Source: Spisula solida (Eukaryota; Mollusca; Bivalvia; Venerida; Mactridae). From it: a DNA stretch of 64,000 nucleotides. The position numbers were made by a program, and so were the translations under genes. The notes under the pieces are model-generated. The model saw only the letters and a list, made by a program, of their open reading frames with translations. It ran no database searches and was not told the DNA's origin. The stretch spans positions 53,737,401 through 53,801,400 of the forward strand of contig OX365948.1 in the NCBI GenBank assembly GCA_947247005.1, given 5' to 3'. Of this stretch, positions 25,332-62,966 are shown in pieces; position 1 is the stretch's first letter; the number at the start of each line of letters is the position of its first letter.

Positions 25332-25520
25332 CAGGGTTTCCACTATAGGGGCCAATTCTTAAGGTTCATTCCAATAATGTTGTACTGGATTTTTATAACA
25401 AAAATATCTATCATTTAAAGAAAATATGACCCTTCAGTCAAAATCCTGTGGGTCAAAAATGGGATTACTTAGACTTTTCAGGGGACAAAGGGTCATTTCA
25501 CGGGTCAAATGGAACCCCTG
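25332..25520. mobile_element. 'CAGGGGTTCCATTTGA' MITE, copy 4
   Basis: Starts CAGGGTTTCCACTATAGGGG and ends GGGTCAAATGGAACCCCTG. It ends 27 bases from the splice donor of PATJ exon 3. Confidence 0.78.
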
Positions 25521-25547
25521 ATTATTATAACATCACACTGTACGTAC

Positions 25548-25948: not shown

Positions 25949-26029
25949 CTGACAATTAAAAATACTTTAACTTAGTATATTACCGGTATAGATCTACATG
26001 AATGTTGCTGACTTAGCAAGACTGTCAGA

Positions 26030-29530: not shown

Positions 29531-29557
29531 ATTATTGAACATCCCTTCAATGATTAC

Positions 29558-29721
29558 CTGTTCAAGTTCCTGCATGGAATCTTGTAGAACCAAGAGTTGA
29601 CGAAACAATGGACTTTGAAGCATACATATTAGGGAGCTGACGTCCTCGTCTTGTGTATGATCGCCGGACTCCCACAACATCGTCTGTAGATGATCCAGGC
29701 ATTCTGCTGCATGATCGCTAT
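29558..29721 (-). CDS. PATJ: PATJ/MPDZ-like exon 2 (L27 domain)
   Basis: 164 bases with a TTACTGCAG acceptor (entry phase 1) and an exit at a phase 0 GTAATC donor. It codes for the L27 domain, a three-helix heterodimerisation module that in this family pairs with the L27N domain of PALS1. The signature CMLQSPLFRQLLVLQDSMQE lies in the last third and corresponds to the LQSPLF..I..LQ..... segment of human MPDZ and PATJ. The frame is closed outside the exon. A 36-bp minisatellite begins about 30 bases past the donor. Confidence 0.93.
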
Positions 29722-29949
29722 CTGCAGTAACAATAGCATGTTCGTTTAAAATATTTCATTGGTAAAATTATTAAGTATATCTAACACCATCATTTAATGT
29801 TTGCATGCTACCCAATGTTTCTTTTCTTCGAGTTTAACACTAAATCTTAACAAATTTTCAGTTATATATATTTACTGCGTCTGATATTCACCTAGTTTTT
29901 CTGGACAGTATTATAATCAGTCCTAACTTATCCTTTCACAAGGTACCGG

Positions 29950-29965: not shown

Positions 29966-32900
29966 ATCTATATCATGTTACCTATTTTTTTGGCTCTATG
30001 TATGTATATCGTGATATAATGTTATAATGGAAGAATGAATTGTTGTTCTCGCTGTTAATCGTCTAAAAATGGACCTTGAGATTACATATCAAGCTTATTC
30101 TTTCCAATCTATACCAAAGTGGAACTTGTCTTTTAGTTTCACCAAATATATGGTAATTATTCTACAATTTTACATGAACCAATGTTAAAATGATATATCT
30201 TAGCACATCATACCACCGTAAATTTACTCCAACAATTCAATTGATACGCAATTGACGAGAATGTAATTGCTTTTCATTACTGTATATCATACACTGTGTG
30301 TAACTTCTTCTTTCCCTTGATACATGTAACACGCTTGGTTCTAAAACATGTAAAGTCCTATCAGGTCTTTTTTCTTTACAATGTATTGGCTATTTTAACT
30401 CTTTTTGACATTATGTGTTTAAGTTTAAAAAACAACAACATTATATAATCCAACCTGGACACACTTGACATCATTTCATACAAATGATTTCAACCAGAAA
30501 CCTTACATATTCTTTGGTCCTTGAGGGCTTAAGTTCCCTTACTCCTTTCTATGCTGCTCTTCCTTACGGGGTATACCGAACACTATATATTGTCGCAGTT
30601 AAACCACAGGCGTTAATTAATGGATGTGCATTACTGACTTTGTTTTTAAAATATACTTCGTTTTGTAAATAATGAGTCTCAAGTTTTCCACATTTAACGT
30701 CAAGGGTATAGCATCAAAATCAAAACGAGTCGAATTGTTTGAATGGTTAAAACTGAATAAATATTCAATAAGTTTTTTACAAGAAATACATTGCACACCA
30801 AACAATTATAATGAGTGGAAAAGGGAATGGAAGGGTGAAATGTTTATTAGTGGAAACCAGTCAAATAGCGCAGGGATAGGCATATTCGTCAACGAAGATG
30901 TTAACTTCGTATTTAAGTCCTATAAAGAATATAGACAGGGTCGACTTCAATCATTAAATATAGAGATTGACGGGAATAGCTTACTTCTATTAAATATATA
31001 CGGACCTAATAGAGACGATGAAGAATTGTTAAATGTTTTAGAGAACATACTTATAGAAAACAGTAATGAAACATTCATAATCGGTGGTGATTTTAACACG
31101 ATTATTGATATAAATATTGATAAACAAAATGGTAATAAAAATGCACACAAAAAATGTTCAAAGCGAATTCAAGAAATCATGGAAAATAACGATATACATG
31201 ATATTTGGAGACTAAAACATCCAAATTCAAAACAATTCACATGGCACTCTAATCATAAACCGCCTATTTTTTGCAGATTAGATTATTTTTTAGTGTCGTC
31301 AAATATTTTAAACCATATAAACAATTGTAATATTAAACATGGCTTCAAATCTGACCATTCGGTTGTTACATTCGATTTGGACCTCTTCTCAGCAGAACGT
31401 GGAAGAGGATTCTTCAAAATAAACAACGCAATATTACTGAATAAAGATTTTCAAACAAAAATCAAACAAGCAATAAACGAAATAACCAACATAAATAAGG
31501 AGTCTAACCCAAATACGTTATGGGAACTAGTTAAAGGCACAGTACGAAACGAATCGATTAAATTCTCAAGTAAATTACAAAAATCCAAGAAAGAAAATGA
31601 ATTAAACATACAAAAAAACATTGAAAAATTAGAACGTGACATTATTTCCGATCCAAATAACGAAATCTTCCAAACTGAACTTAAACAACAAATAAAACTA
31701 TTTAATGATATAACTGAAGAAAAAATTAAAGGCATTATATTAAGATCTCGTGCGGAATGGATAGAAGGGGCTGAAAAGAACACAAAATACTTTGCAAACC
31801 TAGAACGTAAGAGAGCCGAAAGTAAAACTATTCACCAACTTAAAACTGAAAATGATATAGTGATACAAAATTCGAAAGAAATTCTATCATATTGTAAAAA
31901 CTTTTATACTGACTTATACAAAGTAAATGAAAACCTAACTCCGGATAATAGCTTTTTTACGAATGAACATACTATTCTTTCTGAGGATGATAAAAACATA
32001 ACCAGCGGAAAAATGTCAGAATATGAAGGATATAATGCATTAAAAGAAATGAATAATAACAAAAGTCCTGGTTCAGACGGCCTGTCTGTTGAATTCTACA
32101 AGATATTCTGGAACGATATTAAAATATTTTTAATAAATTCATTAAACTACTCATATGACACAGGTAAATTAACTGAGCTTCAAACTCAAAGTATCATTAC
32201 ATTAATACCAAAAAAGAACAAGGATCCTTTATCTATCAATAACTGGAGACCAATATCATTATTAAATGTTGACTACAAAATTGCCTCCAAAGTAATCGCT
32301 AATAGAATAAAAAAAGTTATTGATGGTATAGTGAATAAACAACAAACGGGATTTATTAAGGGAAGATATATAGGTGAGAATGTGCGAACTATTATAGAAA
32401 CTATTGAACAAATGCAACAAAAACAAGAACCTGGTTTAATTTTCTTCTCCGATTTTCAGAAAGCTTTTGACAGTTTAGATCACCAATTTATGTTCAAATG
32501 TCTAAAAGAACTGAATTTAAGTGACTCACTTATACAATGGGTTAAGGTTTTTTACGATAATGCAAAAGGGTGTATAACTAATAATGGTCATTTTTCTGAC
32601 TTTTTTTCTATTAAGAATGGAGTACGACAAGGTTGTCCTTTGTCACCTTACCTATTTATACTATGTATTGAATTTTTGTCTACATCGATAGAAAACAATG
32701 AAGATATTCAAGGTATTTCTATAAACAACAACTGTACCAAACAAACTTTATTCGCAGACGATGCTAGCTTTTTACTAAACGGATCTCAAAAATCATTTGA
32801 AACTCTAATAAAAACCCTCGATGATTTTGGAAACACTTCGGGACTCAAACTCAACAGAAGCAAATGTTCAGTAATGCGCATTGGTAACTTGATAAACACA

Positions 32901-34640
32901 GATACAGCCTATGATAACGAATTCAAATGGACTTCAACAGATGCCACAACCTTAGGAATTACTTTTAGCAACCAATTAAATACAATGTATGACTCAAATT
33001 TAGCAAACAAAATAACAGAATGCAAACACGTGTTGAAACAATGGAAAAAATGGAATTTAACACTCATAGGAAAAATAACGGTTCTAAAAACGTTTGTCCT
33101 TCCAAAATTAATTTATCCTTTAACTGTTCTTCCAAATCCACCATCAGTTTTTGTTAAATCAATTAAAGATATATTCTTTGATTTTTTATGGAATTCCAAA
33201 CCTGATAAAATATCACGTAAATTAATAATTCAAGAATACAAAGACGGTGGCCTTAAAATGATTGACATTGAATGTTTCTTAGATTCACTGAATATAAGCT
33301 GGATAAAAAGAATAATTGATTCAAATGCAAATTGGAGTTCTCAGTATAAGAATGAGTTAGAAAAATATGGAGGACTTTTACTATTTAAATGTACTATAAC
33401 AGAACAAGACTGCAAATGTCTTGATATAAAATCTAAATTTTTAAAAGATATATTAATCTCATGGTCTAAGGTAAACACATTAAACACAGAAATCCAAATA
33501 TCAAAACAAATCATTTGGAACAATTCGAATATAAGAAATTTAAGTAATAACAAACTATTCTGTTATAAAACTTGGTACAGAAAAGGCATTCTCTTTTTAG
33601 AGCACATTTTTGACTTCAGGCATAAAACATTCTATAGCTTCGAGCAAATGAAATTTCTGTATGATATCCACAATGGCGATTATTTAAACTACTACACTCT
33701 CATTAAAAATGTACCAAAAGAATGGAAACGACAATTGGATAATTGTAATATGACATACGATGCACCTAACTACTTGATTGATACAATAAATGGAAAAACC
33801 AAAATAAATAGACTATCATACAAAACACTAATTAAACGAAAAATGCCAACTGAACCAAAATACAAAAGAAACTGGAATACAAATCACGCATTTGAAGGTT
33901 TAGAATGGGATAAAATCAACATACAACAATATATTATCACAATAGATACTAAACTAAGAGAATTCCAATACAAATATCTCATGAATATAATACCAGACAA
34001 CTCATTCCTACATAAATGCCATTTAATCCAATCAAGTATGTGTGATTTTTGCAACATGCACCCAGATTCGATACATCATATGTTCTGGGAATGTCATATT
34101 GTGCAAGGCTTCTGGTCTGAGGTAAAGTTATTTTTAGAAGACAAATTTTCAAAAACTATAAATCTTACATTTCAAAATATTTCATTTTGCAACATTATTA
34201 ACAATAAAGATGAAGATGGACTTATAACTAACTACATTGTTTTGCTTTCGAAATATTTTATATTTAAAAACAAATGCAACAAAAGTGTTCCGCTAATCCG
34301 GCAATTTAAAGAATATGTTTACTATAGGAAAAAACTTGAACACACTATAGCTCTTTTTAAAGATAAAGAAGAAGTCTGTACCATAAAATGGCAAAAGATC
34401 ACATAATTACAAATTTTAAAGATGTTGGTATACCCCACCCTATCCCTTTCCCCCCTTTCATCACTATCTTTCTATCCTTCTTATTCCCTATATTCTATAA
34501 AATTCATAACGGCATACACAAACATGTAATATTAGGTAACCACTATATAGTTGGACTATATTATGTGCAAGTATTATTGTAAGTATGAATGTATGTATTA
34601 TTTTGTGTATATGTCTTATGAAAATAAAAAAGTTAAAAAC
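29966..34640 (+). mobile_element. L1/Tx1-like non-LTR retrotransposon (LINE), complete insertion
   Basis: A 4675-bp insertion bounded by a perfect 16-bp direct repeat (CAACTTCTCCACTTGT at 29950-29965 and 34641-34656), the target-site duplication expected of target-primed reverse transcription. The body has a 706-bp leader, one long open frame and a short 3' untranslated region ending in an A-rich tail without a long poly(A). No ORF1 is present: the leader holds only a 62-codon frame (30484-30672) whose stop overlaps the next ATG. The copy may be 5'-truncated, or the family may lack ORF1. The intact frame and unmutated duplication imply a recent insertion. It sits antisense in the first coding intron of the PATJ-like gene. 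Confidence 0.93.
30672..34406 (+). CDS. LINE ORF2: endonuclease-reverse transcriptase polyprotein (1244 aa)
   Basis: Nicks the target DNA and copies the element RNA there. The N-terminus is an APE-type endonuclease (about residues 4-235) with Asn9, Glu38 (QEIH), Asp140 and Asn142 (GGDFN) and a terminal SDH (Asp228, His229), all catalytic positions present. Reverse transcriptase runs from about residue 465 (SPGSDGLSVEFYK) through RPISLLN, GFIKGR, FSDFQKAFD and NGVRQGCPLSPYLF to the catalytic FADD at 694-697. Near the C-terminus (about 1122-1146) CDFC...H...C is the CCHC zinc knuckle of L1-type ORF2. No stop or frameshift interrupts 3735 bases, and the length is typical of L1/Tx1 ORF2. The L1-versus-Tx1 assignment is by eye and unresolved. 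Confidence 0.95.
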   Translation: MSLKFSTFNVKGIASKSKRVELFEWLKLNKYSISFLQEIHCTPNNYNEWKREWKGEMFISGNQSNSAGIGIFVNEDVNFVFKSYKEYRQGRLQSLNIEIDGNSLLLLNIYGPNRDDEELLNVLENILIENSNETFIIGGDFNTIIDINIDKQNGNKNAHKKCSKRIQEIMENNDIHDIWRLKHPNSKQFTWHSNHKPPIFCRLDYFLVSSNILNHINNCNIKHGFKSDHSVVTFDLDLFSAERGRGFFKINNAILLNKDFQTKIKQAINEITNINKESNPNTLWELVKGTVRNESIKFSSKLQKSKKENELNIQKNIEKLERDIISDPNNEIFQTELKQQIKLFNDITEEKIKGIILRSRAEWIEGAEKNTKYFANLERKRAESKTIHQLKTENDIVIQNSKEILSYCKNFYTDLYKVNENLTPDNSFFTNEHTILSEDDKNITSGKMSEYEGYNALKEMNNNKSPGSDGLSVEFYKIFWNDIKIFLINSLNYSYDTGKLTELQTQSIITLIPKKNKDPLSINNWRPISLLNVDYKIASKVIANRIKKVIDGIVNKQQTGFIKGRYIGENVRTIIETIEQMQQKQEPGLIFFSDFQKAFDSLDHQFMFKCLKELNLSDSLIQWVKVFYDNAKGCITNNGHFSDFFSIKNGVRQGCPLSPYLFILCIEFLSTSIENNEDIQGISINNNCTKQTLFADDASFLLNGSQKSFETLIKTLDDFGNTSGLKLNRSKCSVMRIGNLINTDTAYDNEFKWTSTDATTLGITFSNQLNTMYDSNLANKITECKHVLKQWKKWNLTLIGKITVLKTFVLPKLIYPLTVLPNPPSVFVKSIKDIFFDFLWNSKPDKISRKLIIQEYKDGGLKMIDIECFLDSLNISWIKRIIDSNANWSSQYKNELEKYGGLLLFKCTITEQDCKCLDIKSKFLKDILISWSKVNTLNTEIQISKQIIWNNSNIRNLSNNKLFCYKTWYRKGILFLEHIFDFRHKTFYSFEQMKFLYDIHNGDYLNYYTLIKNVPKEWKRQLDNCNMTYDAPNYLIDTINGKTKINRLSYKTLIKRKMPTEPKYKRNWNTNHAFEGLEWDKINIQQYIITIDTKLREFQYKYLMNIIPDNSFLHKCHLIQSSMCDFCNMHPDSIHHMFWECHIVQGFWSEVKLFLEDKFSKTINLTFQNISFCNIINNKDEDGLITNYIVLLSKYFIFKNKCNKSVPLIRQFKEYVYYRKKLEHTIALFKDKEEVCTIKWQKIT

Positions 34641-41935: not shown

Positions 41936-42079
41936 GATGAAGGTACAGAACACAGAAGTTGCAAGTTACTATATTGACCCTAGGCGCAGTTTATAGTATT
42001 AATCCTTGCCCTAGGTTATAATATTACAGGTTGGCATACTTACACATGCATGTAATATATACTGCATATATACCTTCAG

Positions 42080-42231
42080 GTTCTGCAGTGTGGCTGATCA
42101 TTGTTGCTTTTTTCTGGGGGGCTACCAACCCTTTCATCAAGCGAGGAAGTAAAGGGATAGAATCCATTACAGCTTCTTCACCAGCTAAACAAGTCTTTGC
42201 AGAGTTGTGGTTCTTGGTTACTACTTGGCAG
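42080..42231 (+). CDS. TMEM234: TMEM234 exon 2 (first transmembrane helix and conserved loop)
   Basis: Follows a TACCTTCAG acceptor and ends in TGGCAG before GTATAC. It enters in phase 1 and leaves in phase 0. It encodes SAVWLIIVAFFWGATNPFIK, the first membrane helix with the family WG.T.P motif, then a polar loop and a second hydrophobic start (ELWFLVTTWQ). A second AG at 42087-42088 would give the same phase with three fewer residues. Confidence 0.92.
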
Positions 42232-42266
42232 GTATACTTTCTTTTGTCAGAATTTTATAAAAATAC

Positions 42267-42458
42267 TATAGTCCGCCCAGGATAATGTGATATTTACAAA
42301 CATTAATCGGTTTGGTCAACTGAGGCAAAATTGGTTTTACAAATCACTTAAATAAACAGTGTACTAAAACATCACTGATAATCGTGCACATAATTGTAAT
42401 CCACCTTTGTGGAATATACCAAATTTTCCTGTCTATCACATTATCCTGGGCGCACTAT
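42267..42458. mobile_element. MITE 'TGCGCCCAGGATAA', copy 2
   Basis: TATAGTCCGCCCAGGATAAT at the left and the complement of ATTATCCTGGGCGCACTATA at the right; TA at both outer ends. It starts 35 bases after TMEM234 exon 2. Confidence 0.87.
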
Positions 42459-44789: not shown

Positions 44790-45293
44790 TAGGGGTGACT
44801 ATCGAGTCCATTTTTGACTATTGCAATACTATTGCTATTGCTGAAAGTACTATTGCGATACTATTGTATTGCATGAAACTATTGCGATACTATTGCAATA
44901 GTTATTGTCAAGATTTCAAAAACCAGAGATTAACTTGTAAATGCAAATTTGCACTGTTTAATATATCACTTTGTTGTAAAACATACTAATCTACTATTTG
45001 TTGTAATGATTTAAAATGAATTGGACTGAAAAAGATTAACATAATTTAACTAAATGCTGCATTGTTTTCAGTACTGGTGCGTGGGATTATTTAAAATTAG
45101 TTTTTTAACGAGAACGACAGATGATTTAAATTAATAATAAACTATATTTATGAAAAGGAAACTATCGTAACTATCGATATTTGAGCTAACTATCGGCGAT
45201 AGTTATTGGATCGAGACTTTTACTATCGATCCATACTATCGGGACACTTGGAATCGCAATGCATCGATATTTCGATGTATCGGCCCACCCCTA
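44790..45293. mobile_element. hAT-like MITE with perfect 8-bp duplication GTATATGT (504 bp)
   Basis: Ends TAGGGGTG and CACCCCTA, flanked by GTATATGT at 44782-44789 and 45294-45301. Internally many 'actattgcgata' and 'actatcgat' motifs. It ends 19 bases upstream of TMEM234 exon 4. Confidence 0.93.
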
Positions 45294-45312
45294 GTATATG
45301 TTTATGTTTCAG

Positions 45313-45405
45313 ATCTATCGCTAGCTGTACCTATCACCAACTCGTTGACCTTCATCTTTACAGCAATATCTGGACATTTATTGGGGGAAAGAATTAAATC
45401 TACTA
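45313..45405 (+). CDS. TMEM234: TMEM234 exon 4
   Basis: 93 bases between TATGTTTCAG and GTAAGT, in at phase 1 and out at phase 1. With the split codon it reads DLSLAVPITNSLTFIFTAIS and then GHLLGERIKST, the third helix and the conserved LAVP..NSL and LGE motifs. A hAT-like MITE ends about 20 bases upstream of the acceptor. Confidence 0.95.
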
Positions 45406-46445
45406 GTAAGTTACCTTTACACGCGGGTTCAAGACACAAATCAAATTTGTCTTAAGGCGTATTATGTTATACTTGTATATATATACAGAATACTGTACTA
45501 GGGTGGATTTAAAGGGAGGGGGGTGGAAGGCCTATATAGACACTATTCATTTTGTGTCTTGCACCTGTGCTTTAACACATTCATGGAATTGTGTCCGACA
45601 CGGATAGATATGTATTCTTTGTGTCCGAGAACTAACTCTACTTGTGGGAGCTCCATCTAGTTTGTGTTGTTGGTAGAATGACGCAGCTGTGATAAAGTGC
45701 ACTGAATTTGTAAAAACCCTGGGTTTTATTCTGCCATGATAGGTCATACCGGTACCCTTTCAAGAAAATTTGACTAAAATGTTTTTTCCTCAACATATGC
45801 AGAAGTTGCTGGTTAAAGTTAGTGCTTGTTAGGATACAGTCCAGGAAAACTGGTTTGGTGAATCAACTGCCATATATAACTGAAAACATTTGTGAAACCA
45901 TGTTAAACGCTGCAATGACTTTTGCCAGAATGATGGCTCTTTGTTCTTTCTCTATAATATATATAGTGAAAGTTCTTGTGAACACAACTCTATGCAGTTT
46001 TTGCAGGATTTCCATTGAGACGTTCACAGATGAACAACCTCGGCATGTAGAGTACATGAACTTGAAGGAAAGAATTTGCACAGCAATGATTTTGGCCAAA
46101 ATTATGGCCCCAGAGGTTGTTTATTCACTTTATGATATAATGAAAACTTCCTACACTTTTACATGATTTCACTCAATCTTTCATAGAAGAAAAAGATGTG
46201 CCTGAAGGAATTAATGAATTAGCTGATGAATTAGCTGCAATGCTTTTTGTTATGCTGTGGTGTATTAGTCTGCTGGATGGCAACAACTCTTTATTTTGTC
46301 TTGAAATCTTGTTCATTGCTGATGTCTATTAACCTAGCAAAGCACTTTTTAGCATTTTTCAAGGGAGGTAATTCATGCCCACTATATTTGATGGACGGAA
46401 GGTAACTGAAGGAAGGCGCTCTGTAGCACATTGCTTAGGCACCAG

Positions 46446-51714: not shown

Positions 51715-52140
51715 AGTATCTAATTACAATTACTGGTACACCAATGGAACTATGTTGGCATTACTATTGCAGAGCAATGACTGATACACCAATATAACTG
51801 TAGGCATTACTATTACAGATCAATTACTGATATACCGATAGAATTGTGTTGGCATTACTGTTACGCCACTAGAACTGTGTGGGCATTACTATTACAGAGC
51901 CATTACTGATATACCTATAGCATTGTGTAGGCATTACTGTTACGCCACTAGAACTGTGTTGGCATTACTATTACAGAGCCATTACTGATATACCGATAGA
52001 ATTGTGTAGGCATTACTGTTACGCCACTAGAACTGTGTTGGCATTACTATTACAGATCAATTACTGATATACCAATAGAACTATGTAGGCATTACTTTTA
52101 CAAAACTAGAACCATGTAGGCATTACTATTACATTTACCT
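51715..52140. repeat. Complex minisatellite (GTAGGCATTACTATTACAGA type)
   Basis: Units of about 37 and 47 bases alternate, giving blocks of about 85-130 bases with GCATTACTGTTACGCCACTA and ATTACTGATATACCGATAGA. Confidence 0.88.
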
Positions 52141-52144
52141 TGTT

Positions 52145-52246
52145 TCAGTTGCCATTCACCTCTTCTATTTGTCTCATACATTCTATTTTTTCTACAGACA
52201 TGTCAGGATTCATATTAGTCACTTCTTCTATAGCTGCCCTCAATAA
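52145..52246 (-). CDS. Protein 4.1 C-terminal domain, last exon with stop (H)
   Basis: 102 bases after a TTTACAG acceptor, phase 0, to a TGA stop at 52147-52145. It encodes LLRAAIEEVTNMNPDMSVEK, then IECMRQIEEVNGN. This aligns with A.AIKEAKEQHPDMSVTKVVV at the end of vertebrate 4.1 proteins. The 3' untranslated region runs leftwards into minisatellite-rich DNA; several AATAAA candidates exist (complement of 51618-51623 and 47965-47970) and I cannot choose between them. Confidence 0.94.
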   Translation of the reverse strand, partial: LLRAAIEEVTNMNPDMSVEKIECMRQIEEVNGN

Positions 52247-52249
52247 CTG

Positions 52250-52400
52250 TAAACATAAAATACACACATGTAATTTGAACCTATTTGGGACATGAAATAC
52301 ACAAATGTAATTTGAACCTATTTGGGACATGAAATACACAAATTTAATTTGAACCTATTTGAGACATGAAATACACAAATGTAATTTGAACCTATTTGTC
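52250..52400. repeat. 37-bp tandem repeat, four units
   Basis: ATACACAAATGTAATTTGAAC plus CTATTTGGGACATGAA; starts directly after the acceptor region of the last 4.1 exon. Confidence 0.93.
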
Positions 52401-52499
52401 TTCCGGCAAAGCCTCGTGTCATATCATTTTGTCCTCTCATTTTATAAAACTCCTATGTAACGAGCACTGATGCCAGGTCCTCTATCACATCACGGTTCC

Positions 52500-52735
52500 T
52501 ACTTGGGCATAATGCCCAATCCTGAAAATGAGTTACAAGTCTGTTTTGGTGCCATTTGCACCCACCATACCGCAAAACTCTTCTTTCAAACATAGTTCTT
52601 TTGTTAAATATCACCAAACGAAACCTCAAATGACCATAACTTTGTCAACTCTTTGAATTTCTTCATCAAATAACTTATTATCTGCAGAAAAGTTCATTCT
52701 CTCTAGTGCACCAAATCTGGAATGTATAGACTTAC
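52500..52735. mobile_element. MITE-like repeat ending at the donor of 4.1 exon G
   Basis: Shares TAACTTTGTCAA, TTCATCAAATAACTTATT(A/T)T, TGCAGAAAA and a terminal GGA....ATAGACTT with 62505-62760. Its last bases form or abut the exon's GTAAGT donor. Confidence 0.65.
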
Positions 52736-52828
52736 AGCATCATGGTCAAATTCATCATTATCATCACTGGTAACTGTAATCTTTCTCTCTACTCTGGTTT
52801 CAATTACACCATCTCTCTCCGTTTTATA
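52736..52828 (-). CDS. Protein 4.1 C-terminal domain, second exon (G)
   Basis: 93 bases, phase 0-0, between GATGTTTCAG and GTAAGT. It encodes YKTERDGVIETRVERKITVT followed by SDDNDEFDHDA. The ETR.E..I..T.D....DHD core is diagnostic of the 4.1 C-terminal domain. A MITE-like repeat abuts its splice donor. Confidence 0.94.
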
Positions 52829-52996
52829 CTGAAACATCATAACACATTGCAATAAATACAACCAATCACCTGTAACCAATTACTGGTAACAAACTAAATT
52901 AATTTACGAATATATCAAATACATCAATTATTTTTAAATGATTGTTTTCTGTATACTCATGAATCGTAATTACGATTTGAGTTTATAAAAAAACCA

Positions 52997-53270
52997 CAAG
53001 ACTGCGTTCAATAAACGCTTATGCCCCCTGTGGAAGCCTTGTCCATAAATAGGTCTAAGTCCAAAATTAGGTTAAGGTGAAGGTCAAAATGGGGTCAGGT
53101 GATACAGGCATGTGGAGAGTGTTCATACATAACATCCATGCAAGTATGAAAGCTTAGTAGCAAGCCATAATAATGCTAGAAGAAACGGTCAATTTGGGTT
53201 AACCAGGACGGACGGACGAACAGACAGGTGAATCACTATATGCCTCCCCATCTATCGATAGGGGGGCATA
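52997..53270 (+). mobile_element. 'caagactgcgttcaataaacgc' element, copy 3
   Basis: CAAGACTGCGTTCAATAAAC to CTATCGATAGGGGGGCATA; nearly identical in layout to copy 1. Confidence 0.87.
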
Positions 53271-54054
53271 AAAACCGAGATGTTCTGTTCCGTTCAAAAA
53301 TTTAATATGGTTAATTTTATTGCCAAACAGAGCGTTTTATAAAACTAATGTCGTTCTTTGTTAGTGCCAAGAAAATTATAAATGAAATACATGTACAGAA
53401 TATTATAAACATGCTAAAAAATTCTACAGTTTCTTTTTCAAGAAAAAAAATGAAATAAAATATATGTCATAAAATAACGAGTAACAACATGTAACTGTCC
53501 ATAGTTGATTAGCTAAGTGATTAAGCTAACTATCAGTAAATATGTCTGCTTTAATACTACACAATACACACATTAATTATCAAACACAGTATTTCACCAG
53601 TGAATAAATTAATACTATCACAATATGTACTGAAATGCTGTTGAACATTCGTGTGTATGTGTATTTATTAAGACTATAAACTGAAAATACTAACCCCACC
53701 AATCCCCCCCCAAAAAACCGTCCCCGCCCCACCCACCCAAAACAAACATGCAGTGTACACCCCCCTCCCCAACACACCCAAACAGACAAATAGTGTACAC
53801 TGTTCATGAACTTAAAATACCCGACTAGAAACAGAGAGTCATTCAGCAACGAAATTGAACTGCATGCTTGGTATTTGATTTTTAAGAAGCACTTTACATA
53901 AAGCATTAGTACAAAAACGATACACCAGCACTACCACAAATGCATCAACAATACCTGACAAAAAACCAGTGCATCAAGCAGTTGGTAGACATTAAGCAAG
54001 TTGCTATAAAATGATAGTGTCAATGCTGCATATTTATCTTTTAAAATTTGAGAA
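53271..54054. other. Unannotated stretch with a C-rich block
   Basis: 53695-53780 is C-rich (CCCACCCACCCAAAACAAAC). No exon seen. Confidence 0.5.
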
Positions 54055-54125
54055 ATAATAATAAAGACTTAATTTATAGAGGCAACACAGTTAGGCATGC
54101 CCAGTCTTCCATGTGAGCCTCTTTA
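54055..54125 (-). mobile_element. Retroposon 3'-end fragment, copy 3
   Basis: AATAATAATAAAGACTTAAT, GAGGCAACACAGTTAGGCA and GTGAGCCTC, in the order seen at 42476. The adjacent 63-codon minus frame (54091-54282) is not recognised. Confidence 0.6.
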
Positions 54126-54489
54126 ATTCCACAAAACAAGAAGTTGTCACTGACTGAGCGCTGCGCCGCTCTGCAACATTTCTTGAAAGTAAATCAGCCA
54201 AGTACTGAGAAGTGACATGTGTAACATATCGGCTAGTAACATGAGTGAAATATTGTGCGATCAAACAAAAGCAAGCTGGCAAAGTGTGTGAAAGCTTTCA
54301 TCAATCTCTCATATAAAGTGGTACATTTACAAATTGCTTTTAAAATGTCAATTAAATACTAATCAATCAAAGCGGAGATTTATCAAAAAGAAAATATATA
54401 TAAAGCCCAAGAAGTGCTAAGTAACCCAAGTATGATCAATCATAGGAACATTGTGTAGAATGAAATATGATAGAACAGGATACAGTTAG

Positions 54490-55230
54490 TTTTCACTGGG
54501 TAATATTCTCAATAGTTCTAGCTAGCATGTGAGTTTGTATAAAACACAATTTTGAAGGAATCAAACAGTAGGCTAGGAGACTCCATAAAATATGTAGTAA
54601 ATAACACACTGTTTTGAAGGTATCAAACAGTAGGCTGGGAGACTCAATAAAATATGGGGGTCAATCAAGCACTGTTTTGAAGGAATCAAACAGAAGGCTG
54701 GGAGACTCCATTAAATATGTAGTAAATAACACACTGTTTTGAAGGTATCCGACAGTAGGCTGGGAGACTCCATAAAATATGTAGTCAATAACACACTGTT
54801 TTGGAGGTATCAAACAGTAGGCTATGAGACTCTATAAAATATGTAGTCAATAACACACTGTTTTGAAGGTATCAAACAGTAGGCTAGGAGACTCCATAAA
54901 ATATGTAGTCAATCAAGCACTGTTTTGAAGGAATTAAACAGTAGGCTAGGAGACTCCATAAAATATGTAGTCAATCAAGCACTGTTTTGAAGGAATCAAA
55001 CAGTAGGCTGGGAGACTCCATAAAATGTGGAATAACTCAAACAGTTTTGAAGGTATCCAACAGTAGGCTAGGAGACTCCATAAACTATGTAGTCAATATC
55101 ACACTGTTTTGAAGGTATCAAACAGTAGGCTGGGAGACTCTATAAAATATGTATTGAATAACACAGTTTTAAAGGTATCAAACAGTAGGCTGGGAGACTC
55201 AAATAAGATATGGAATCAATCAAGAACTTG
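54490..55230. repeat. 62-bp minisatellite (CACTGTTTTGAAGGTATCAA type)
   Basis: About 12 units of ACACTGTTTTGAAGGTATCA, AACAGTAGGCTGGGAGACTC, CATAAAATATGTAGTCAATA. Confidence 0.95.
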
Positions 55231-56130
55231 CTGATATTAGTTAGTAGCAGACATTATATATAAATTTATTCATGCTGAATGATGGGACTATGAGTATACA
55301 ATATCAATCAAGCAGTACATGCATCACACATCAAGGGGCCTATCCATGCCAATATAACAACACTACCACTCTAAACACAGTTTGTGTAAACTATACACAT
55401 ACATTAAGGGACTTCGGTCAAGGGGATTCGGTCAGTGCAACAGAAAACCCAAAATGTGCACATCTAGACCAATTTTTCGGGTGCCCAACAGATTCTTGTC
55501 AATAAGTTTGACATCCAAACAATTTTCTGTACATAAAACACTTGAGACTTAATTTTGGAGGGTAAGGCATGATTTTTCAAAGAAATGCTAGATCAAAACT
55601 TAAAATAATACCATTCCACAAATAATTATCATTTTTGCCCAAAATAAAAAAGAAATATGCCAAGAAATTATAATGTCACTTAAATTTTAAACACCATAAA
55701 TATTTCAAATAAGGAAAATTAACTCTTGCAGCTATTGATACAAAAAGAATACAAAGGTTTCTATGAAGCTCTTTGAAAAAATCTTAAGAAATAATAAAGC
55801 CAACTTACATGTACTATAAATAAGGAAATTAAATTATCATTTTTGACAAGGGTGAGAATTATTAATACATAGAAATTAACACCTTTCCACTGACTTAACT
55901 TGCACAGGTACTTAACAATGCCTTCGTAATGTGAAGTCACAATTTTTTAAAAATTTTGCTAAACACCATAAACATATATTTTTTGCATTTGTTATTTTCT
56001 TCTTTCCTCAAAAAATGTTTTGAATTTCTTAAAACAACAATGTTCTACAGATGCGCAATCAGAATGGTTACAGATATAGCAGACAAATTCTCAACCCTGT
56101 TCAATTGATTATAATACAGTTATACATGTT
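55231..56130. other. Intronic stretch of the 4.1-like gene
   Basis: AT-rich; a 77-codon frame at 55272 on the plus strand has no recognised homology. Confidence 0.5.
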
Positions 56131-56215
56131 ATAAGGAAGGGGCTAATAACACTACGTAAACTGTGTTTAGAGGGGAACTAGATGTTGATATATGTTGCGA
56201 CACCACAACCCTTAC

Positions 56216-56419
56216 TGTAGTAGTATCAATCGTCTGTGATTTAGTTGTCACTGAATGAGCGCTGATTAATATACTCTCTTCTGTCTCATACGGAACCCCG
56301 TCCTTCTCGTACGTTACCTTATGCGTCTTGGTTTCAACTATAGGTATATTGGATGTAGGTCTTGGAACATCGTTCATGTCCGGACTGTATTTGTAGGACT
56401 CAGTTCTCACCGTAACAGG
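56216..56419 (-). CDS. Protein 4.1 C-terminal domain, first exon (F)
   Basis: 204 bases, phase 0-0, between TTTTTACCCAG and GTAAGG. It encodes PVTVRTESYKYSPDMNDVPR, then IPIVETKTHKVTYEKDGVPY and SILISAHSVTTKSQTIDTTT. This matches the vertebrate 4.1 pattern (VP.V.TETKTITYE ... L.SAQTITSET..TTTT), so the homology is clear. In vertebrates this domain binds partners such as NuMA. Confidence 0.92.
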
Positions 56420-57035
56420 CTGGGTAAAAAATAGGGATGAATTGTTCTCACAGCTGTATTCAATACTTAAAGAATTCATAGAACGTCATCCAGTGAAAAC
56501 TAACTACATGTATACTAAAATTTCACCCAAACCCCCGCCCACACCACATCCTGTTGTTACATCACAGAATAACTCAACTAAATTTCAGGTCCTCAATATC
56601 CATTAACAATAAGAATCATCAAAGAAGTTGACTCTCATGTTGGTTGTAAAATAACGAGTCCGAAGTTAACTCTCATGTGCCATATTCCCCTGATTAAATG
56701 CCACGCCTGAGCGTTGTATTTTCTAAAAGAGGGGCATTCAATCAGGGGAGTCAGGCAAATAGCCGTCTACCTTACAGGTATCAGGTGTAGTTTATCAAGA
56801 AAGGGTCTCAATTACAACTTATGCAATGGCAAGCACACTAGTAGTAACAAAGCATTGGTTCTAACATAGAACTTTTTTAATGAAAGCTGCATTCTATTTA
56901 CTAGCATCAAACCTGTTAATTAAACCTGTTTTAAGTTGCATGAATGTCCCATAATGTGAAGTTATTTATAGCAGGCAGCTTGCTTTTTATATGGTTTTAA
57001 GTCCCACTGGTCAACAGTATTTCAGTCATATGGAG

Positions 57036-57232
57036 ACTACCCAGTCATAAATTAGCCTGACACCGGGTGAACCAACAGTCACTTGTTAGTTGGAACTATC
57101 CTCTATGCCGAGTTCCAAGAAAGGGAGATCTACCAATACCTTTTTACAAACTTTGGTATGTCTCCGCCTAGGTTCAAACCCAATACCTCTCGCACTTGAA
57201 GCAAGCGCTCTGCTACTAGGCTATCAAGGCAG
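57036..57232 (-). mobile_element. tRNA-derived SINE
   Basis: On the minus strand: TAGCCTAGTAGCAGAGCGC (A-box-like) and TTGGGTTTGAACCTAGG (B-box-like), then a body with ATACCAAAGTTTGTAAAAAG and ending near TGGTTCACCCGGTGTCAGGC. Related fragments lie at 10845-11180. Confidence 0.7.
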
Positions 57233-57356
57233 GCTACAGGCAGTAACAAGGAAACCCAGGTTTGGAACAGTTACCTTACATGTTACACTACATACAGTAT
57301 AGTTTCAAACTCACATTCAAAATATATACACATGTAGTCATGGTACGTATTCTGAT

Positions 57357-57546
57357 ACACTGCTTCTTAGTTTCGTCAGAGAATTGTTCCGTTTTCATAT
57401 AATATGGCTCTGACGGAACTAGAAACCAATGTAACACTCAGATGAAACTCAGGATACATAACAGTTGAGTTCCATCAGAGCATTACATTAGTTTTCAGTT
57501 CCATCAGAGCCATATGAAAACTCTCTGACGGAACTGAGAAGTGGTG
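57357..57546. mobile_element. Fold-back MITE 'CACTGCTTCTTAGTTCCGTC'
   Basis: ACACTGCTTCTTAGTTTCGT plus CAGAGA at the left and complementary TCTCTGACGGAACTGAGAAG at the right, with two further inner copies of the GGAACT motif; almost the whole element is self-complementary. Confidence 0.85.
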
Positions 57547-57548
57547 TA

Positions 57549-57722
57549 CAGTCAGATCTCGATACAACGACGCTGTTAGTTTCCAAGAAAAATGTCGTTA
57601 TAACGAATATGTCGGTATACTGAATTGCTACAAAGAGCATCTTAATAGTTTTGTCCCCAAATTTGATGTCAGTATAATGAATTTGTCAGTATATCGGATG
57701 TCGTTATAACGAGATCTGACTG
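57549..57722. mobile_element. Pogo/Tigger-like MITE (174 bp)
   Basis: CAGTCAGATCTCGATACAAC and the complement of GTTATAACGAGATCTGACTG, with TA at 57547-57548 and 57723-57724. It shares its left TA with the end of the previous MITE. Confidence 0.9.
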
Positions 57723-57929
57723 TATTGGGATTCCTACCGCGGTAGTGTTATGTCTCATTTCATGAACATGCTATTTTCTATATAACATCCACCAATCATT
57801 GCATTCTATGTGTTTGTATTTAGGAGTGATAAGATACATAGGAAGTGACAATGTAAACCAGCCTATCTGCATATACAGGGGGCGGCATTAAAACCAGTCT
57901 ATCAACAACTCAATCAGCAGATGCTGTAA

Positions 57930-58142
57930 AATAATTATTTTTCATGGGTATTAAATTTCATGGATTTTGGTAAAATGCTATTTTGTGGGATAGTAAATTT
58001 GTAGATTACAAAACATGGAAGGGTAAACCCTTTTTCCATATCTGTTAAGTTGAATAATCGTGGGGATTAGATTTCGTGGTCACGTTCAACCACACAATCC
58101 ACGAAAATTTAACGCCCATGAAAAATAAATATTTTAAAGTAG
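57930..58142. mobile_element. MITE 'TTTCGTGGATTTTG', copy 2
   Basis: AAATTTCATGGATTTTGGTA, AAACATGGAAGGGTAAACC, AATCGTGGGGATTAGATTTC, ending GAAAAATAAATATTTTAAAG. Confidence 0.7.
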
Positions 58143-58564
58143 TCTAACTTTTCTTTTCCTTAAAGTAGGCCAGTGTTGGTAAAATGACTCGACCCAAACA
58201 AGACATGAATACTGGAATATGTTCACTAATGCATCACATTTAGATAATAAAGGTGCCACCAGTTTTACACATGTTAGTTTTTAGATTATCCACATGATGA
58301 TCACAGTAAGTGGACTTACAGTAGAACTTTGATGTCTCAAACTGCCTTCAAACCAGGAAATAGTCATCTACCTATCCGCATCATGTACTGTGTATTATGT
58401 ATACATAAACATCATCATTTGCCGGGACCAAAGAACCAGTTTGAGGTTTCTAGGGTGTTTGAGGCAAAACTGTTCAAACCATCTACCTGTTCGAGGCATG
58501 TACTGTCTATCATGTATACATCACTGTTTTGCCAGGACTGACAGAAGAAGCTGTCCAAGAATTC

Positions 58565-58785
58565 CAGGCCCTAAACTCCAGAAACATCTCAAGAAGAAAT
58601 CTCAGCTCAAATTGAGATTTTGCTTGAATCTGAGTCTGAATTTGAGATAAATCTGAAGTTCGAGCTCTTGAAATTTTACTGTAATAAACTCAGAATAAAG
58701 TTTCTGTTTTGTGATGCCAATGGACACTTGGAAATATTTGAGATGAGATTTAGTCCAAACTCAGATGCTACGGGAGGTCGGCACC
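58565..58785. mobile_element. Fold-back MITE 'CAGGCCCGATCTCCCGAAGC', copy 3 (decayed)
   Basis: CAGGCCCTAAACTCCAGAAAC to CAGATGCTACGGGAGGTCGG; body nearly identical to copy 2. Confidence 0.8.
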
Positions 58786-58887
58786 TTGATGTTTGAGGCA
58801 AAACTGTTTGAGGCATCTAAGTTCTAGATGTATATGAAACCATTATATCAATGTATCGGTTAGAGATGACTATATAAATAACCGTAC

Positions 58888-59058
58888 CACTCCTGTCTGA
58901 CTGTTTAATAATCTATCTTCCTCTGATTCGAAGCCGCTACTTCCACGTGGTTTCTTAGCAATAGGTGGTGGTGCTCTCTTTCTACCCAATGAATCAACAT
59001 CAGTTTCTCCCGGTGATTCAAAGAATGGCATTGATTCTTCATGTGTCTTCTTGGTTGT
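58888..59058 (-). CDS. Linker exon E of the protein 4.1-like gene
   Basis: 171 bases, phase 0-0, between TGTTTACCAG and GTACGG. It encodes a polar, probably disordered segment: acidic and Ser-rich, then RKRAPPPIAKKPRGSSGFES and SEEDRLLN. The KRAPPPIAKKPRG run is basic and proline-rich, like SH3-ligand or nuclear-localisation stretches. No domain was recognised. A 36-bp minisatellite starts about 30 bases upstream of the acceptor. Confidence 0.72.
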
Positions 59059-59084
59059 CTGGTAAACATAAATAACAAATTTAA

Positions 59085-59205
59085 ATCATGTGACATGAAT
59101 ACAGACATCATGTAACGTAAATCATGTGACATGAATACAGACATCATGTAACGTAAATCATCTGACATGAATACAGACATCATGTAACGTACATCATGTG
59201 ACATA
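59085..59205. repeat. 36-bp tandem repeat, three to four units
   Basis: AATCATGTGACATGAATACA plus GACATCATGTAACGTA. Confidence 0.92.
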
Positions 59206-59214
59206 AATAGACAT

Positions 59215-59472
59215 CAGGCCCCGATCTCCCGAAGCATCTCAATGAGAAATCTCAGCTCAAATTGAGATTTTGCTCAAATAAAAATCTGAGTTTAAGACAA
59301 ATCTCAAGTTTGAGCACTTGAAATGTTGCCGATATAATGCTCTAAACTATGTTTTCATTTTGGTGATACCAATTTTGAGTCTGATCACGCATGGAAATTT
59401 ACTCAAAAGACAACCGACAAAATTTGAGCTGAGATTTATCTCAAATTGAGATGTTTCGGGAGATCGGGCCTG
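59215..59472. mobile_element. Fold-back MITE 'CAGGCCCGATCTCCCGAAGC', copy 4
   Basis: CAGGCCCCGATCTCCCGAAG to GATGTTTCGGGAGATCGGGC then CTG; the best-preserved ends of the four copies. Confidence 0.9.
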
Positions 59473-60057
59473 ATATAGGACCATATAAAATACATTCACA
59501 CAAAATTATGTGTTTTGCTAGATAACCCCAAGGGAGGTAAGCCTGTGTCTTATTGTTTGATTAATTTTTTAAGTAAGAATATTATTACATTTACAATAAA
59601 ATCCAATGAGTGGGTTTCAGAGAAATAAGATTTGATCAAATTACACAATATGTTATCTAGAAAAAAGCCTCGTTTCAAAAGAGTCAAACGAGGAATGGGA
59701 AGTTTAATTGAAACATGTCAAGTTGACTTGGGCGGATCTGGGCTTGTTTAGTTGGGCATTGTGTCTTTATGTGTTTTATGTTTCCTGTACTAGGTTGGAT
59801 CAGCTGGGCATTATGCTTTGTGTGTTTTTAATGTTTTCTGAGCTCGGCTGGTTAAGTTGAGTGCTGCCTTCCCTATCTGACTTAATATAATCTTTTTGTT
59901 ATCAGAGGAGATGTTTGACAAAATAATGAACGGACACACAACGGACAACAGGCAATAGCGTCTAGAAGAGCTAACTACAGTAAATCACAATCAGACATCT
60001 TGGATCTGTGTTAAAACTTGAGTAGAAATCGGACAAAGATTTATTTGCAGTGTTTAC
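59473..60057. other. Intronic stretch of the 4.1-like gene
   Basis: No repeat or exon recognised apart from 'gttgggcatt' and 'gctgggcatt' echoes near 59750-59810. Confidence 0.5.
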
Positions 60058-60159
60058 CGATGAAGGCGGGCTGATAGGCAAGAATTCCAACTTTCTGTCT
60101 ATTGATTTATAACCACCGCTCTTGAGACCATAATCCACGTCACCATAGCCGAGACCAGC
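60058..60159 (-). CDS. Linker exon D of the protein 4.1-like gene
   Basis: 102 bases, phase 0-0, between TCTATTTCAG and GTAAAC. The product begins AGLGYGDVDYGLKSGGYKSI and ends LEFLPISPPSS, a Gly/Tyr-rich then Pro/Ser-rich stretch with no recognised domain. Clean splice borders, a fully open frame and codon-like composition support coding. Confidence 0.7.
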
Positions 60160-60594
60160 CTGAAATAGACACACATATATACAGTAATAACTTTATACAT
60201 TTGTACTTGTTTGTGCTGCATTTAACACCCCGTAATGTACACACGGTGGTTACATTATTCATGTTTGTACCACATTCAATACAGGAATATTTCCAATCAA
60301 CTATTTCATGATACTTTTTACTGTACAGAACATGTCAAAATGGGTAAAGTCTTAACTCAAGCCAAGCTACTGTTTTCAAAAGCTGAAGCTATATCCAATA
60401 TTTACAGTATAGAACGGCTATATAATTGAATCATGACTGATGGACCTGATACTGTTTCATCTATTTGTTCAAATCAATATATCAATGTATCGTCGATACT
60501 TGTCTTCCGATATATCGAAATTGTTGATATGCCTCTGATTGAACCAATGACAGCTCTACAAATATATGTATAGAAGATATAAACGGGTATTTAC

Positions 60595-60756
60595 CAGATT
60601 ATTGACATGTTCATTAAACCATTTGGCACGTAACAGATCAGAGTCGACAGCATGATATCGTGGATCAGTGTCGATCAGATGTTTGGATTGATGCCATTGA
60701 CTGTATGCTGTGATATCAGGTGTATCTTGTAACAATTGTACAAAGGCTGCCTTTTT
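60595..60756 (-). CDS. FF-like domain exon C
   Basis: 162 bases, 54 codons, phase 0-0, between TTTTTTGCAG and GTAAAT. It encodes KKAAFVQLLQDTPDITAYSQ, with the conserved Trp just after, DTDPRYHAV and AKWFNEHVNN. This is the copy closest to the FF consensus seen in TCERG1 (F..LL.....IT..S.W......I..DPR). Confidence 0.87.
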
Positions 60757-60832
60757 CTGCAAAAAAAAATGATACATTTAGCCCACGATAACACAGGCAT
60801 AATTTAAACTAGAACGGCTTTTGACATAAAAC

Positions 60833-61050
60833 GTAAGTCTCCCACAAAGAGCTATAACATCAGAAAAATTCATCTGACCTCGAATTCCTGACAATATGCC
60901 CAACTAGGCTTGGTACCAAGCATTCACGCGAAGTTTCGTTGAAATCAGACCAGTGGTTAAGGAGACCAAGTGCGTACATACTTTGCGACATCCACCCACA
61001 CATCAACACAAAATCAATGTCTCCCCTACTATATAAGGAAGACATAATTC
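60833..61050. mobile_element. 'tgtctccc' interspersed repeat, copy
   Basis: GTAAGTCTCCCACAAAGAGC, GAATTCCTGACAATATGCCC, TTTCGTTGAAATCAGACCAG and a terminal AATCAATGTCTCCCC. Confidence 0.7.
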
Positions 61051-61059
61051 ATATAATCT

Positions 61060-61612
61060 AAGTTCAATGAAAACGCACCACTTTGACCTTAAAATCAGTA
61101 GGGGCATCTACTTTTGATGACCATCCTCCATGTAAAGTTTGAGGATCCAAGGGTCAAGCACTCTTTAGTTATTGAACAAAAACCATTTGGTCTAGGCCGA
61201 ACTTAAAATATTCTTGGTTTCCCCATCCCGACCCTAGCAGATTTAGAATGGGTAGGTAGGTAGGGTTAAATTTTTTTTTTGGAACCGTTTCAGTATGGTA
61301 GTTATTGGTTAAGACATACAAATAATGAAATTTAGAATTAACTTTAAGGTGAACACCAACAGTCTTAAATTTAATGGTAAGAAAGAAGTCGGTAAACAAA
61401 AATTAACATTCTCACTTCCAATTTTTAATAAAAAAAATATTATTTCAATTTGGGCAATAAAATATTTTGGGTAGGGCCCTTTTTAATCGGGTAGGTAGGG
61501 GATGGGGAAACAAACAATATTTTATTTTAGGCCCTACCGACTGAACAACAGACAGATGGACGGACCGACATGTGCAAAGCAATATACCCCCCTCATCAAA
61601 GATGGGAGGCAT
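61060..61612 (+). mobile_element. 'atgtttgtaaaacatgtatgcccc' element, interrupted
   Basis: Monomer with AATCAGTAGGGGCATCTACT and AAACCATTTGGT at 61185-61191; the matching tail (CGACTGAACAACAGACAGAT...CATCAAAGATGGGAGGCATAA) resumes at 61538. Confidence 0.8.
61192..61537. mobile_element. Nested MITE 'TAGGCC...AAATATT...GTTTCCCCATCC'
   Basis: Left end TAGGCCGAACTTAAAATATT and CTTGGTTTCCCCATCCC; right end is its complement (GGATGGGGAAACAAACAATA, TTTTATTTTAGGCC). Inner GGGTAGGTAGG motifs mirror each other. It lies inside the element at 61060-61612. Confidence 0.87.
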
Positions 61613-61710
61613 AAATATGTACCACTTATTTTCATGCAGTAATTGATACCATCAGGAATGAGGTGTTGAGTGATTAAATAGAAGTTGTTTCATAACCTAA
61701 AATACTTAAA

Positions 61711-61968
61711 ACAAGAGATGTTTGTAAAACATGTATGCCCCCAATGGCAGCCCATTAGTCAGAAATGTCAAAGGTCACAAACACCTTGACCTTTGACCTA
61801 CTGATCTCAAAATCAATAGGGGTCATTTACTGTTGATGACCAAACTCCATGTAAAGTCTGAGGATCCTAGGGCAAAGTGTTCTTGAGTTATTGAACGTAA
61901 ACCATTGGTATACTGAAGGACCAACATGTGCAAAGCAATATACCCCCTCATCATAAGGGGCATAACTA
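61711..61968 (+). mobile_element. 'atgtttgtaaaacatgtatgcccc' element, copy
   Basis: ACAAGAGATGTTTGTAAAAC start, one monomer, end CCCCCTCATCATAAGGGGCA. Confidence 0.87.
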
Positions 61969-62139
61969 TTACAGTAAATATGTACAACCTATTTTCATGA
62001 AATAATGGATACCATCAGGAATGAGGTGTCGAGAATGACAATTAAAGTTAAAGAACTTCTTTCACAATCGACCTAAGTTGAATTAGAATAAGTTATTGGC
62101 CTTTAGAAAAGATGTGATTTCACAGTTGGCAATACCTAC

Positions 62140-62301
62140 CATATTTTGTGTATGTTCATTGAAGTATTGTTGTCTCTGTTCTTCTGTATCAACATTAGCG
62201 AATCTAGGATCGTTACAAATGTCTTCTCGTACATCAGGATACTTGCTGTAACTGGTTATGCTCGGGGTATCATTTAGTAATCCTATAAACTCTTCTTTTT
62301 T
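62140..62301 (-). CDS. FF-like domain exon B
   Basis: 162 bases, 54 codons, phase 0-0, between TTGTTTGCAG and GTAGGT. It encodes KKEEFIGLLNDTPSITSYSK, then NDPRFANV and QQYFNEHTQNM. It shares the frame and motif spacing of the other two FF exons, so the three arose by exon duplication. Confidence 0.85.
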
Positions 62302-62504
62302 CTGCAAACAAAACAGTGAAGAAACATGGTTATTCCACATGCTTAGAAATTGTGATAAGAATTTAAAACGAAGCTGGAGCTCCTCTTACATGCCTTCGGG
62401 GGCATAAAAATGGCCTTAATTCATACACCTGACTTATCATGGCCCTAGTTTATTTAGTTTTCAAACACATTCGTACATCACGTTGCAATGTTGTTCCTCT
62501 TTAC

Positions 62505-62760
62505 TCAGGGGTCCTACAGAGGCAAAATGTTCAGTCCTGAAAGTAAGGCATAAATCTGTTGTGGATGCCAAGAGCACAAATTCCTACATCAAAACAGTTT
62601 CAAGCAATGTTGGGTTTTGGGGGTTAAAATTCAGCTTATACGGCTTTCAAATGATTGTAACTTTGTCAATACTTTTAATTTTTCATCAAATAACTTATTT
62701 TTTGCAGAAAATTTCTTTCCAGTGCAGCGAATACAGAATTCCGGATTATCTAGACTTGTG
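62505..62760. mobile_element. MITE-like repeat related to 52500-52735
   Basis: GGGGTCCTACAGAGGCAAAA, TAACTTTGTCAATAC, TTTTTCATCAAATAACTTAT, then GGATTATCTAGACTTGTGAG. Confidence 0.6.
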
Positions 62761-62804
62761 AGACTGCTGTATACTGTAAATGAAAACTAGAAAACTAAAC
62801 TTAC

Positions 62805-62966
62805 CAAATTATTTACATATTCATTAAACCACTCCTCTCTCTGCCTATCACTGGATACTGCTTGATATCGTGGATCATTTTCAATGTAAACTTTAACATC
62901 ATCAAAACGTGCGTCACTCGTAACCATGGGTGTGTCTCGCAACAGTTGCGTATACTCTGATTTCAA
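62805..62966 (-). CDS. FF-like domain exon A
   Basis: Exactly 162 bases (54 codons), phase 0 at both ends, between ATATTTTCAG and GTAAGT. The product starts LKSEYTQLLRDTPMVT and contains IENDPRYQAV and EEWFNEYVNN. It fits the FF consensus: leading aromatic and LL in helix 1, DPR(Y/F) before the 3-10 turn, and the closing (W/F)F in the last helix. It is the most upstream FF exon visible; more may lie past the right edge. Confidence 0.82.

Follow-up and report, generated by a model that had tools for sequence, protein, structure and literature searches.

A protein 4.1 gene of the clam Spisula solida carrying an array of FF-domain exons of likely TCERG1 origin

A stretch of 64,000 nucleotides from the surf clam Spisula solida (hereafter the window; C5:53737401-53801400 of a source genome of 932 Mb in 36 contigs, which was itself searched) raises the question of how exons that encode FF domains came to share one reading frame with the C-terminal domain (CTD) of protein 4.1, from which gene they were taken and what they might do there. 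On balance we consider it probable that the window covers the 3′-terminal part of a 4.1 gene, with the order FERM, FA, linker, five FF, linker and CTD, and that its FF exons likely came from the third FF (FF3) of TCERG1; the array is predicted to form an acidic, helix-fused docking rod. Eight minus-strand exons are confirmed at 52145-62966. All their inner borders are AG/GT, every exon length is divisible by 3, all junctions are phase 0 and together the exons give one 385-codon frame that ends in a TGA stop. The sequence-only reading of this DNA had proposed three consecutive 162-nt FF exons followed on the same strand by two linker exons and three CTD exons, all in phase 0, and this arrangement stands, with the FF coordinates exact and each FF exon alone exceeding the curated Pfam FF (PF01846) cut-off of 22 bits. 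Module C, the third FF of five (62805..62966, phase 0/0), scores 55.3 bits, module D (62140..62301, phase 0/0) 52.7 bits and module E, the last FF (60595..60756, phase 0/0), 47.1 bits. They are followed by linker exon L1, with a SIDRK motif (60058..60159, 102 nt, phase 0), linker exon L2, with the pattern MPFF...PPP.A.KP (58888..59058, 171 nt, phase 0), and the CTD exons C1 (56216..56419, 204 nt), C2 (52736..52828, 93 nt, phase 0) and C3, the terminal exon with the TGA stop (52145..52246, 102 nt). In the joined eight-exon protein, Pfam finds three FFs at 4e-40 and 4_1_CTD (PF05902, cut-off 25 bits) at 1.6e-13 and 51.1 bits, confirming the proposed CTD identity. The CTD is clear across its three exons joined; singly, only the second exon matched, at a sub-cut-off 18.6 bits.

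The FF-CTD exon set is far beyond chance because an annotated Mactra antiquata protein, P0029 (1096 aa, FERM-FA-5 FF-CTD), aligns with the window exons exon by exon at 71-97% identity. Module C is 81.8% identical to P0029 residues 711-765 and module E 83.9% identical to 820-875, the counterpart of module D is the module at 766-819, and C1, C2 and C3 are 92.9%, 87.5% and 96.6% identical to P0029, respectively. With P0029 as the tblastn query against the window and the next 80 kb, and with only rows of 60% identity or more considered, residues 49 to 1092 were matched in order on the minus strand from position 116076 of this extended window down to 52160, with an additional FERM piece at 106670. 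The coding part of the gene is therefore at least 64 kb long. Residues 1-48 were not located in the window and next 80 kb, and the charged stretch at residues 507-549 gave no row there at this threshold. To the right of the window, on the same strand and collinear, are FERM, FA, a charged linker, the exons of FF modules A (extended window 66143-65985, 159 nt) and B (65625-65425, 201 nt) and a 48-nt microexon between FF modules (64151-64104), so that the 4.1 locus of the source genome has five FF exons, A to E. The array thus does lie between the FERM region and the CTD, where it had been placed from the window alone. Upstream exons with both ends visible have AG/GT borders, and junction phases are 0, 1 and 2 in the FERM part and 0 in the array region, as read by eye. 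We infer that one mature transcript joins all these parts in Spisula solida.

Several smaller features were seen at this locus and elsewhere in the genome. Module B has an in-frame 13-residue insertion that resembles an internal duplication and that Mactra P0029 lacks. Before the FF array, at 71441-71361 and 67517-67443 of the extended window (minus strand), there are two near-identical WALPGM exons, probably a recent exon duplication, and in the oyster protein P0003 the WALPGM stretch precedes L1. When the best candidates were scored, the CTD matches of a unionid 4.1 query in the source genome were confined to this locus; a second, 4.1-like FERM set at C9:6082825-6089470 on the plus strand, with 39-64% identity over exons, had no CTD match among the candidates so scored.

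The same architecture recurs in related clams. A first protein search gave a Ruditapes philippinarum FF model, P0001, that comprises three FFs, L1, L2 and the second and third CTD exons, together with FF-free oyster and oyster-like 4.1 proteins that have L1, L2 and the CTD. A second yielded 13 matches, eight of them clam 4.1 proteins, and FERM+FA+FF proteins were found in Mercenaria, Mactra, Mya and Dreissena, with FF counts by Pfam of 9 in Mercenaria, 5 in Mactra, 8 in Mya and 7 in Dreissena. The CTD is in the same chain in the Mactra, Mya and Dreissena proteins, and these annotated single-chain FERM+FA+FF+CTD proteins bear out the earlier suggestion that the FF array belongs to a lineage-specific 4.1 protein. 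In Mercenaria, all three representatives appear to read through into the intron past C1 and end there, and no CTD was matched in either of the two models scanned by Pfam. The Ruditapes 4.1 is split between P0040 (FERM and one FF) and P0001 (three FF and CTD), each on a contig of 57,466 bases. This annotation as two models is what would be expected if an FF gene and an adjacent 4.1 gene had been misread as one, an explanation whose probability we regard as negligible: the FF exons lie between the FERM/FA and L1/CTD parts of one 4.1 gene, the array-region junctions that were read are phase 0, single-chain models exist in three genera, and the two Ruditapes models themselves join FERM to FF (P0040) and FF to CTD (P0001).

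Exon C1 varies among these models. An in-frame inner donor after 56318 (KTHK, then GTAACG) would yield a 102-nt short form, and the Mya model P0031 ends C1 at KTHK, matching this donor. C1 is missing from Ruditapes P0001 and from three oyster-like models, and the Mercenaria models apparently read through the C1 donor.

How far the array extends beyond these clams was surveyed by a FERM-region search in which 7986 proteins were scored and the best 120 listed, some without a species name. An FF tag is present in nine of the 120, all from Mactra, Mya, Dreissena, Mercenaria or Ruditapes, and absent from the remaining 111, which include unionids, oysters, scallop, limpet, abalone, chiton, Lingula, annelids, arthropods and lancelet; no FF-free imparidentian and no cephalopod is named among these best 120. 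The sequence-only reading had looked to both molluscan and annelid 4.1 proteins for FF repeats. They are present in five clam species besides Spisula solida, and the annelids Capitella, Platynereis and Ridgeia carry no FF tag. Mactra and Dreissena belong to Imparidentia and the unionid Sinanodonta to Palaeoheterodonta. In a tree of 19 chosen proteins (588 well-filled columns) the five FF species form one clade (100/100) beside the unionids, and one change suffices for the gain of FF. Within this survey, the FF-array 4.1 is supported as specific to imparidentian bivalves. Public records of the clam proteins carry Pfam FF tags under the names trichohyalin-like, band 4.1-like or uncharacterized protein, and no FERM-FF protein was found in the open literature among the matches listed.

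The clam protein is a genuine 4.1 whose array is new and confined to one lineage. As in the protein 4.1 family (EPB41, EPB41L1-3; coracle), it has FERM, FA and the 4.1 CTD; FERM_N, FERM_M, FERM_C and FA are matched by Pfam in the Mactra ortholog P0029, whose FERM is 60% identical to that of human EPB41L3 in a Foldseek match. Unlike other members of the family, it has 5-9 FF modules between FA and CTD. The flanks of the array are ordinary molluscan 4.1 stretches: SIDRK of L1 and MPFF...PPP of L2 are found in oyster, scallop, unionid and gastropod 4.1 proteins, the two gastropods having FVDRK or FVDNK in place of SIDRK, and the unionid protein P0041 has a stretch homologous to L1. Oyster and oyster-like models enter L1 from three different upstream contexts, which argues for an exon border there, and it is immediately before L1 that the FF array is positioned.

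Judged by domain order, the array is in the place that SAB holds in vertebrate 4.1. At E<=0.01, SAB (PF04382) was matched neither in a scan of six FF-bearing 4.1 proteins nor in a scan of seven 4.1 proteins, which covered clams and other molluscs, and was tagged in P0049, the one fish row of the FERM-region listing. In its available text, PMC1459144 names SAB for mammals and describes one true 4.1 per invertebrate genome; because SAB is so tied to mammals there, it is not defining for an invertebrate 4.1. A chiton protein, Liolophura sinensis P0050, has a different tandem array after FERM-FA, at residues ~520-791 (FLKELEGFRKAPN...HTKAMHKIKDGA...). Like the clam 4.1, it thus has FERM and FA followed by tandem repeats, here at ~60-residue spacing; unlike in the clam 4.1, Pfam does not recognize these repeats as FF, and the Liolophura model gave no CTD match. 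On the evidence of this chiton array, the slot between FA and CTD may have accepted repeat arrays repeatedly.

The origin of the modules was approached with 38 modules from six species and with a profile, A2, built from 15 clam 4.1 FF modules and no other FF. When the PDB was ranked by A2, TCERG1 came first, with FF3 at 44.7 bits, FF5 at 36.5 and the other four FFs at 10.8-18.8; PRPF40A chains did not exceed 30.7 bits, and the best stretch of yeast Prp40 scored 24.9. Fourteen canonical FFs, namely the six TCERG1 FFs of the source genome, six human FFs, an insect FF3 and one yeast Prp40 FF, were also scored with A2. Highest were the genome's own FF3 (74.5 bits), human FF3 (53.1) and insect FF3 (50.8), followed by FF5 at 45.0 and 42.1 bits and the remaining nine at 31.8 or less. 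All 38 modules score best with FF3 among the six TCERG1 FFs of the source genome.

Exon structure points in the same direction. In the source genome the TCERG1 FF3 exon (C10:32185788-32185955, 168 nt, phase 0/0), read by eye from tblastn pieces, opens TTGAAGGCAGACTTC and module B opens TTGAAAGCAGACTTC, the start codon being the same as that of the 4.1 FF exons. By eye, FF1, FF2, FF4, FF5 and FF6 are interrupted by introns and FF3 alone is whole on one exon. At the DNA level module B is 61% identical to FF3, and the modules are 54-65% identical among themselves. TCERG1 (CA150) thus resembles the clam gene in its tandem FFs, with FF3 closest by profile and pairwise score; the FF3 exon shares its start codon and phase with the clam FF exons and measures 168 nt rather than 162. 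In a TCERG1-like model from Cydia amplana, P0034, the FF1 stretch is repeated as numerous identical blocks, which may be an artefact of annotation or assembly.

In an FF tree of 52 rows and 54 columns, modules B (11 rows, 97/99), E (6 rows, 100/100) and C (7 rows, 94/85) form clades, and A (5 rows, 98/95) and D (4 rows, 97/96) form partial clades, with Mya4/Dre3 and Mer4, Mer8/Rud2 left unplaced. The additional front modules of Mya and Dreissena group with B (94/88), and the Mercenaria order is A-B-C-D-A-B-C-D-E when unplaced modules are assigned by sequence and position. The FF3 clade (96/84) nests among the 4.1 modules, and the p-AU is 0.357 for a clade of the modules with all three FF3 (not rejected), 0.072 for the modules alone and 0.044 for the modules with only the genome's own FF3. 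From this nesting and these values, the tree fits an FF3 donor, short of proof. A source in a different FF gene, PRPF40 or p190RhoGAP, or in TCERG1 FF5 seems quite improbable. FF5 is second best, and PF23083, the Pfam model of the fourth FF of RHG35, matches all six clam 4.1 proteins, above its cut-off of 27 in two Mercenaria proteins with no single stretch passing; this p190RhoGAP model fits the clam modules less well than PF01846. FF3 is ahead in three comparisons and, of the six TCERG1 FFs, it alone has a whole phase-0/0 exon, the PDB chains of PRPF40A and Prp40 are far under TCERG1, and the PRPF40 FF exons seen are split, in a comparison for which PRPF40 was partly traced and the FF exons of the p190 gene were left out of scoring. 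Judged from sequence, the donor was likely the FF3 exon of TCERG1, through exon shuffling and then duplication: the phase-0/0 exon would have been copied into a phase-0 intron just before L1, and tandem exon duplication would then have raised the array to 5-9 modules. If so, this is a case of exon shuffling that is open to dating and in which the likely donor exon persists in the same genome.

The predicted structure suggests what such an array might do. In the AlphaFold2 model of P0029, all 29 ten-residue blocks over 581-870 have pLDDT 63-91, and the predicted helices 627-652, 751-776 and 805-830 span three of the four borders between FFs; the microexon lies at the remaining one. The mean net charge is -3.7 for the 38 clam modules versus +1.7 for the 14 canonical FFs, with TCERG1 FFs of the source genome at -2 to +5; the acidic FF1 of Prp40 favours basic peptides according to the available text of PMC2613882. 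In the predicted mechanism, a long helix would run from one FF into the next, and the resulting rod would bind short, probably basic, peptide motifs multivalently, docking partners between the membrane-bound FERM and the CTD. The array would then do in clams the job that SAB does in vertebrates, determining how far the membrane-skeleton link reaches and which partners it has.

A module number that ranges from 5 to 9 across species, helices predicted to be continuous through three of four FF-FF borders and a chiton 4.1 that fills the same slot with a different repeat array would also suit a mere spacer, a rod of adjustable length and without specific ligand that fixes the distance between CTD and membrane. 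We think this rather unlikely. A bare spacer has no need to keep its modules distinct, but E and B are clades over all families sampled, C has 94/85 support, and identity is kept partly for A and D, whose support extends to just five and four rows. Seven residues (L8, L9, T12, P13, R33, R43 and E49) are invariant in all 15 aligned modules, chosen from the 38, and the conserved FF aromatics, helix-1 F/Y and F47, are present in 90% or more of this alignment. By analogy with p190RhoGAP, whose FF domains retain TFII-I in the cytoplasm according to the accessible part of PMC6523970, the array might instead have kept its old type of ligand and hold nuclear or RNA-processing factors at the membrane, as descent from TCERG1 FF3, its nearest relative, could suggest. 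This is improbable, the modules having turned acidic, opposite to the canonical FFs that bind phospho- or acidic peptides.

TCERG1 is a nuclear elongation and splicing factor with WW domains. In the six FF-bearing clam 4.1 proteins there was no match at E<=0.01 to WW, GTPase-like or RhoGAP domains, and its GTPase-like and GAP domains set p190RhoGAP (ARHGAP35/5) apart from the clam protein. What the two have in common is an FF array that, for p190RhoGAP, is described as outside the nucleus in the available text of PMC6523970, which calls the p190RhoGAPs the only cytoplasmic FF proteins; the corresponding portion of PMC2613882 assigns FF proteins to WW/FF or p190 families. We tentatively propose, at slightly under even chances, that FERM-FF-CTD is a third FF class, in which a TCERG1 exon entered 4.1 in the imparidentian stem, turned acidic, was multiplied to 5-9 modules and, as a rod in the SAB slot, provided the clam membrane skeleton with a multivalent device of its own for docking and length setting. 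Placed in what is apparently the sole CTD-bearing 4.1 gene of a clam genome, the array is also a natural experiment in what can fill the SAB slot of a membrane-skeleton linker.

The window also contains a PDZ exon (25505-25966; 22.9 bits by Pfam, barely sub-cut-off) and an L27_2 exon (29429-29755; 45 bits), both on the minus strand. Beside the 4.1 gene and on its strand, they are perhaps the start of a PATJ/MPDZ-like polarity scaffold. On the plus strand there are TMEM234 exons at 42022-42285 and 45171-45455 (38.2 and 31.4 bits) and, at 30669-34406, a non-LTR retrotransposon copy with a stop-to-stop frame of 1245 codons and endonuclease and reverse transcriptase domains. Minisatellite arrays are located in introns of the 4.1 gene and just downstream of it, at 54473-55215, 51729-52193 and 52253-52435, with spacings of 62, 31+48 and 37 nt, respectively.

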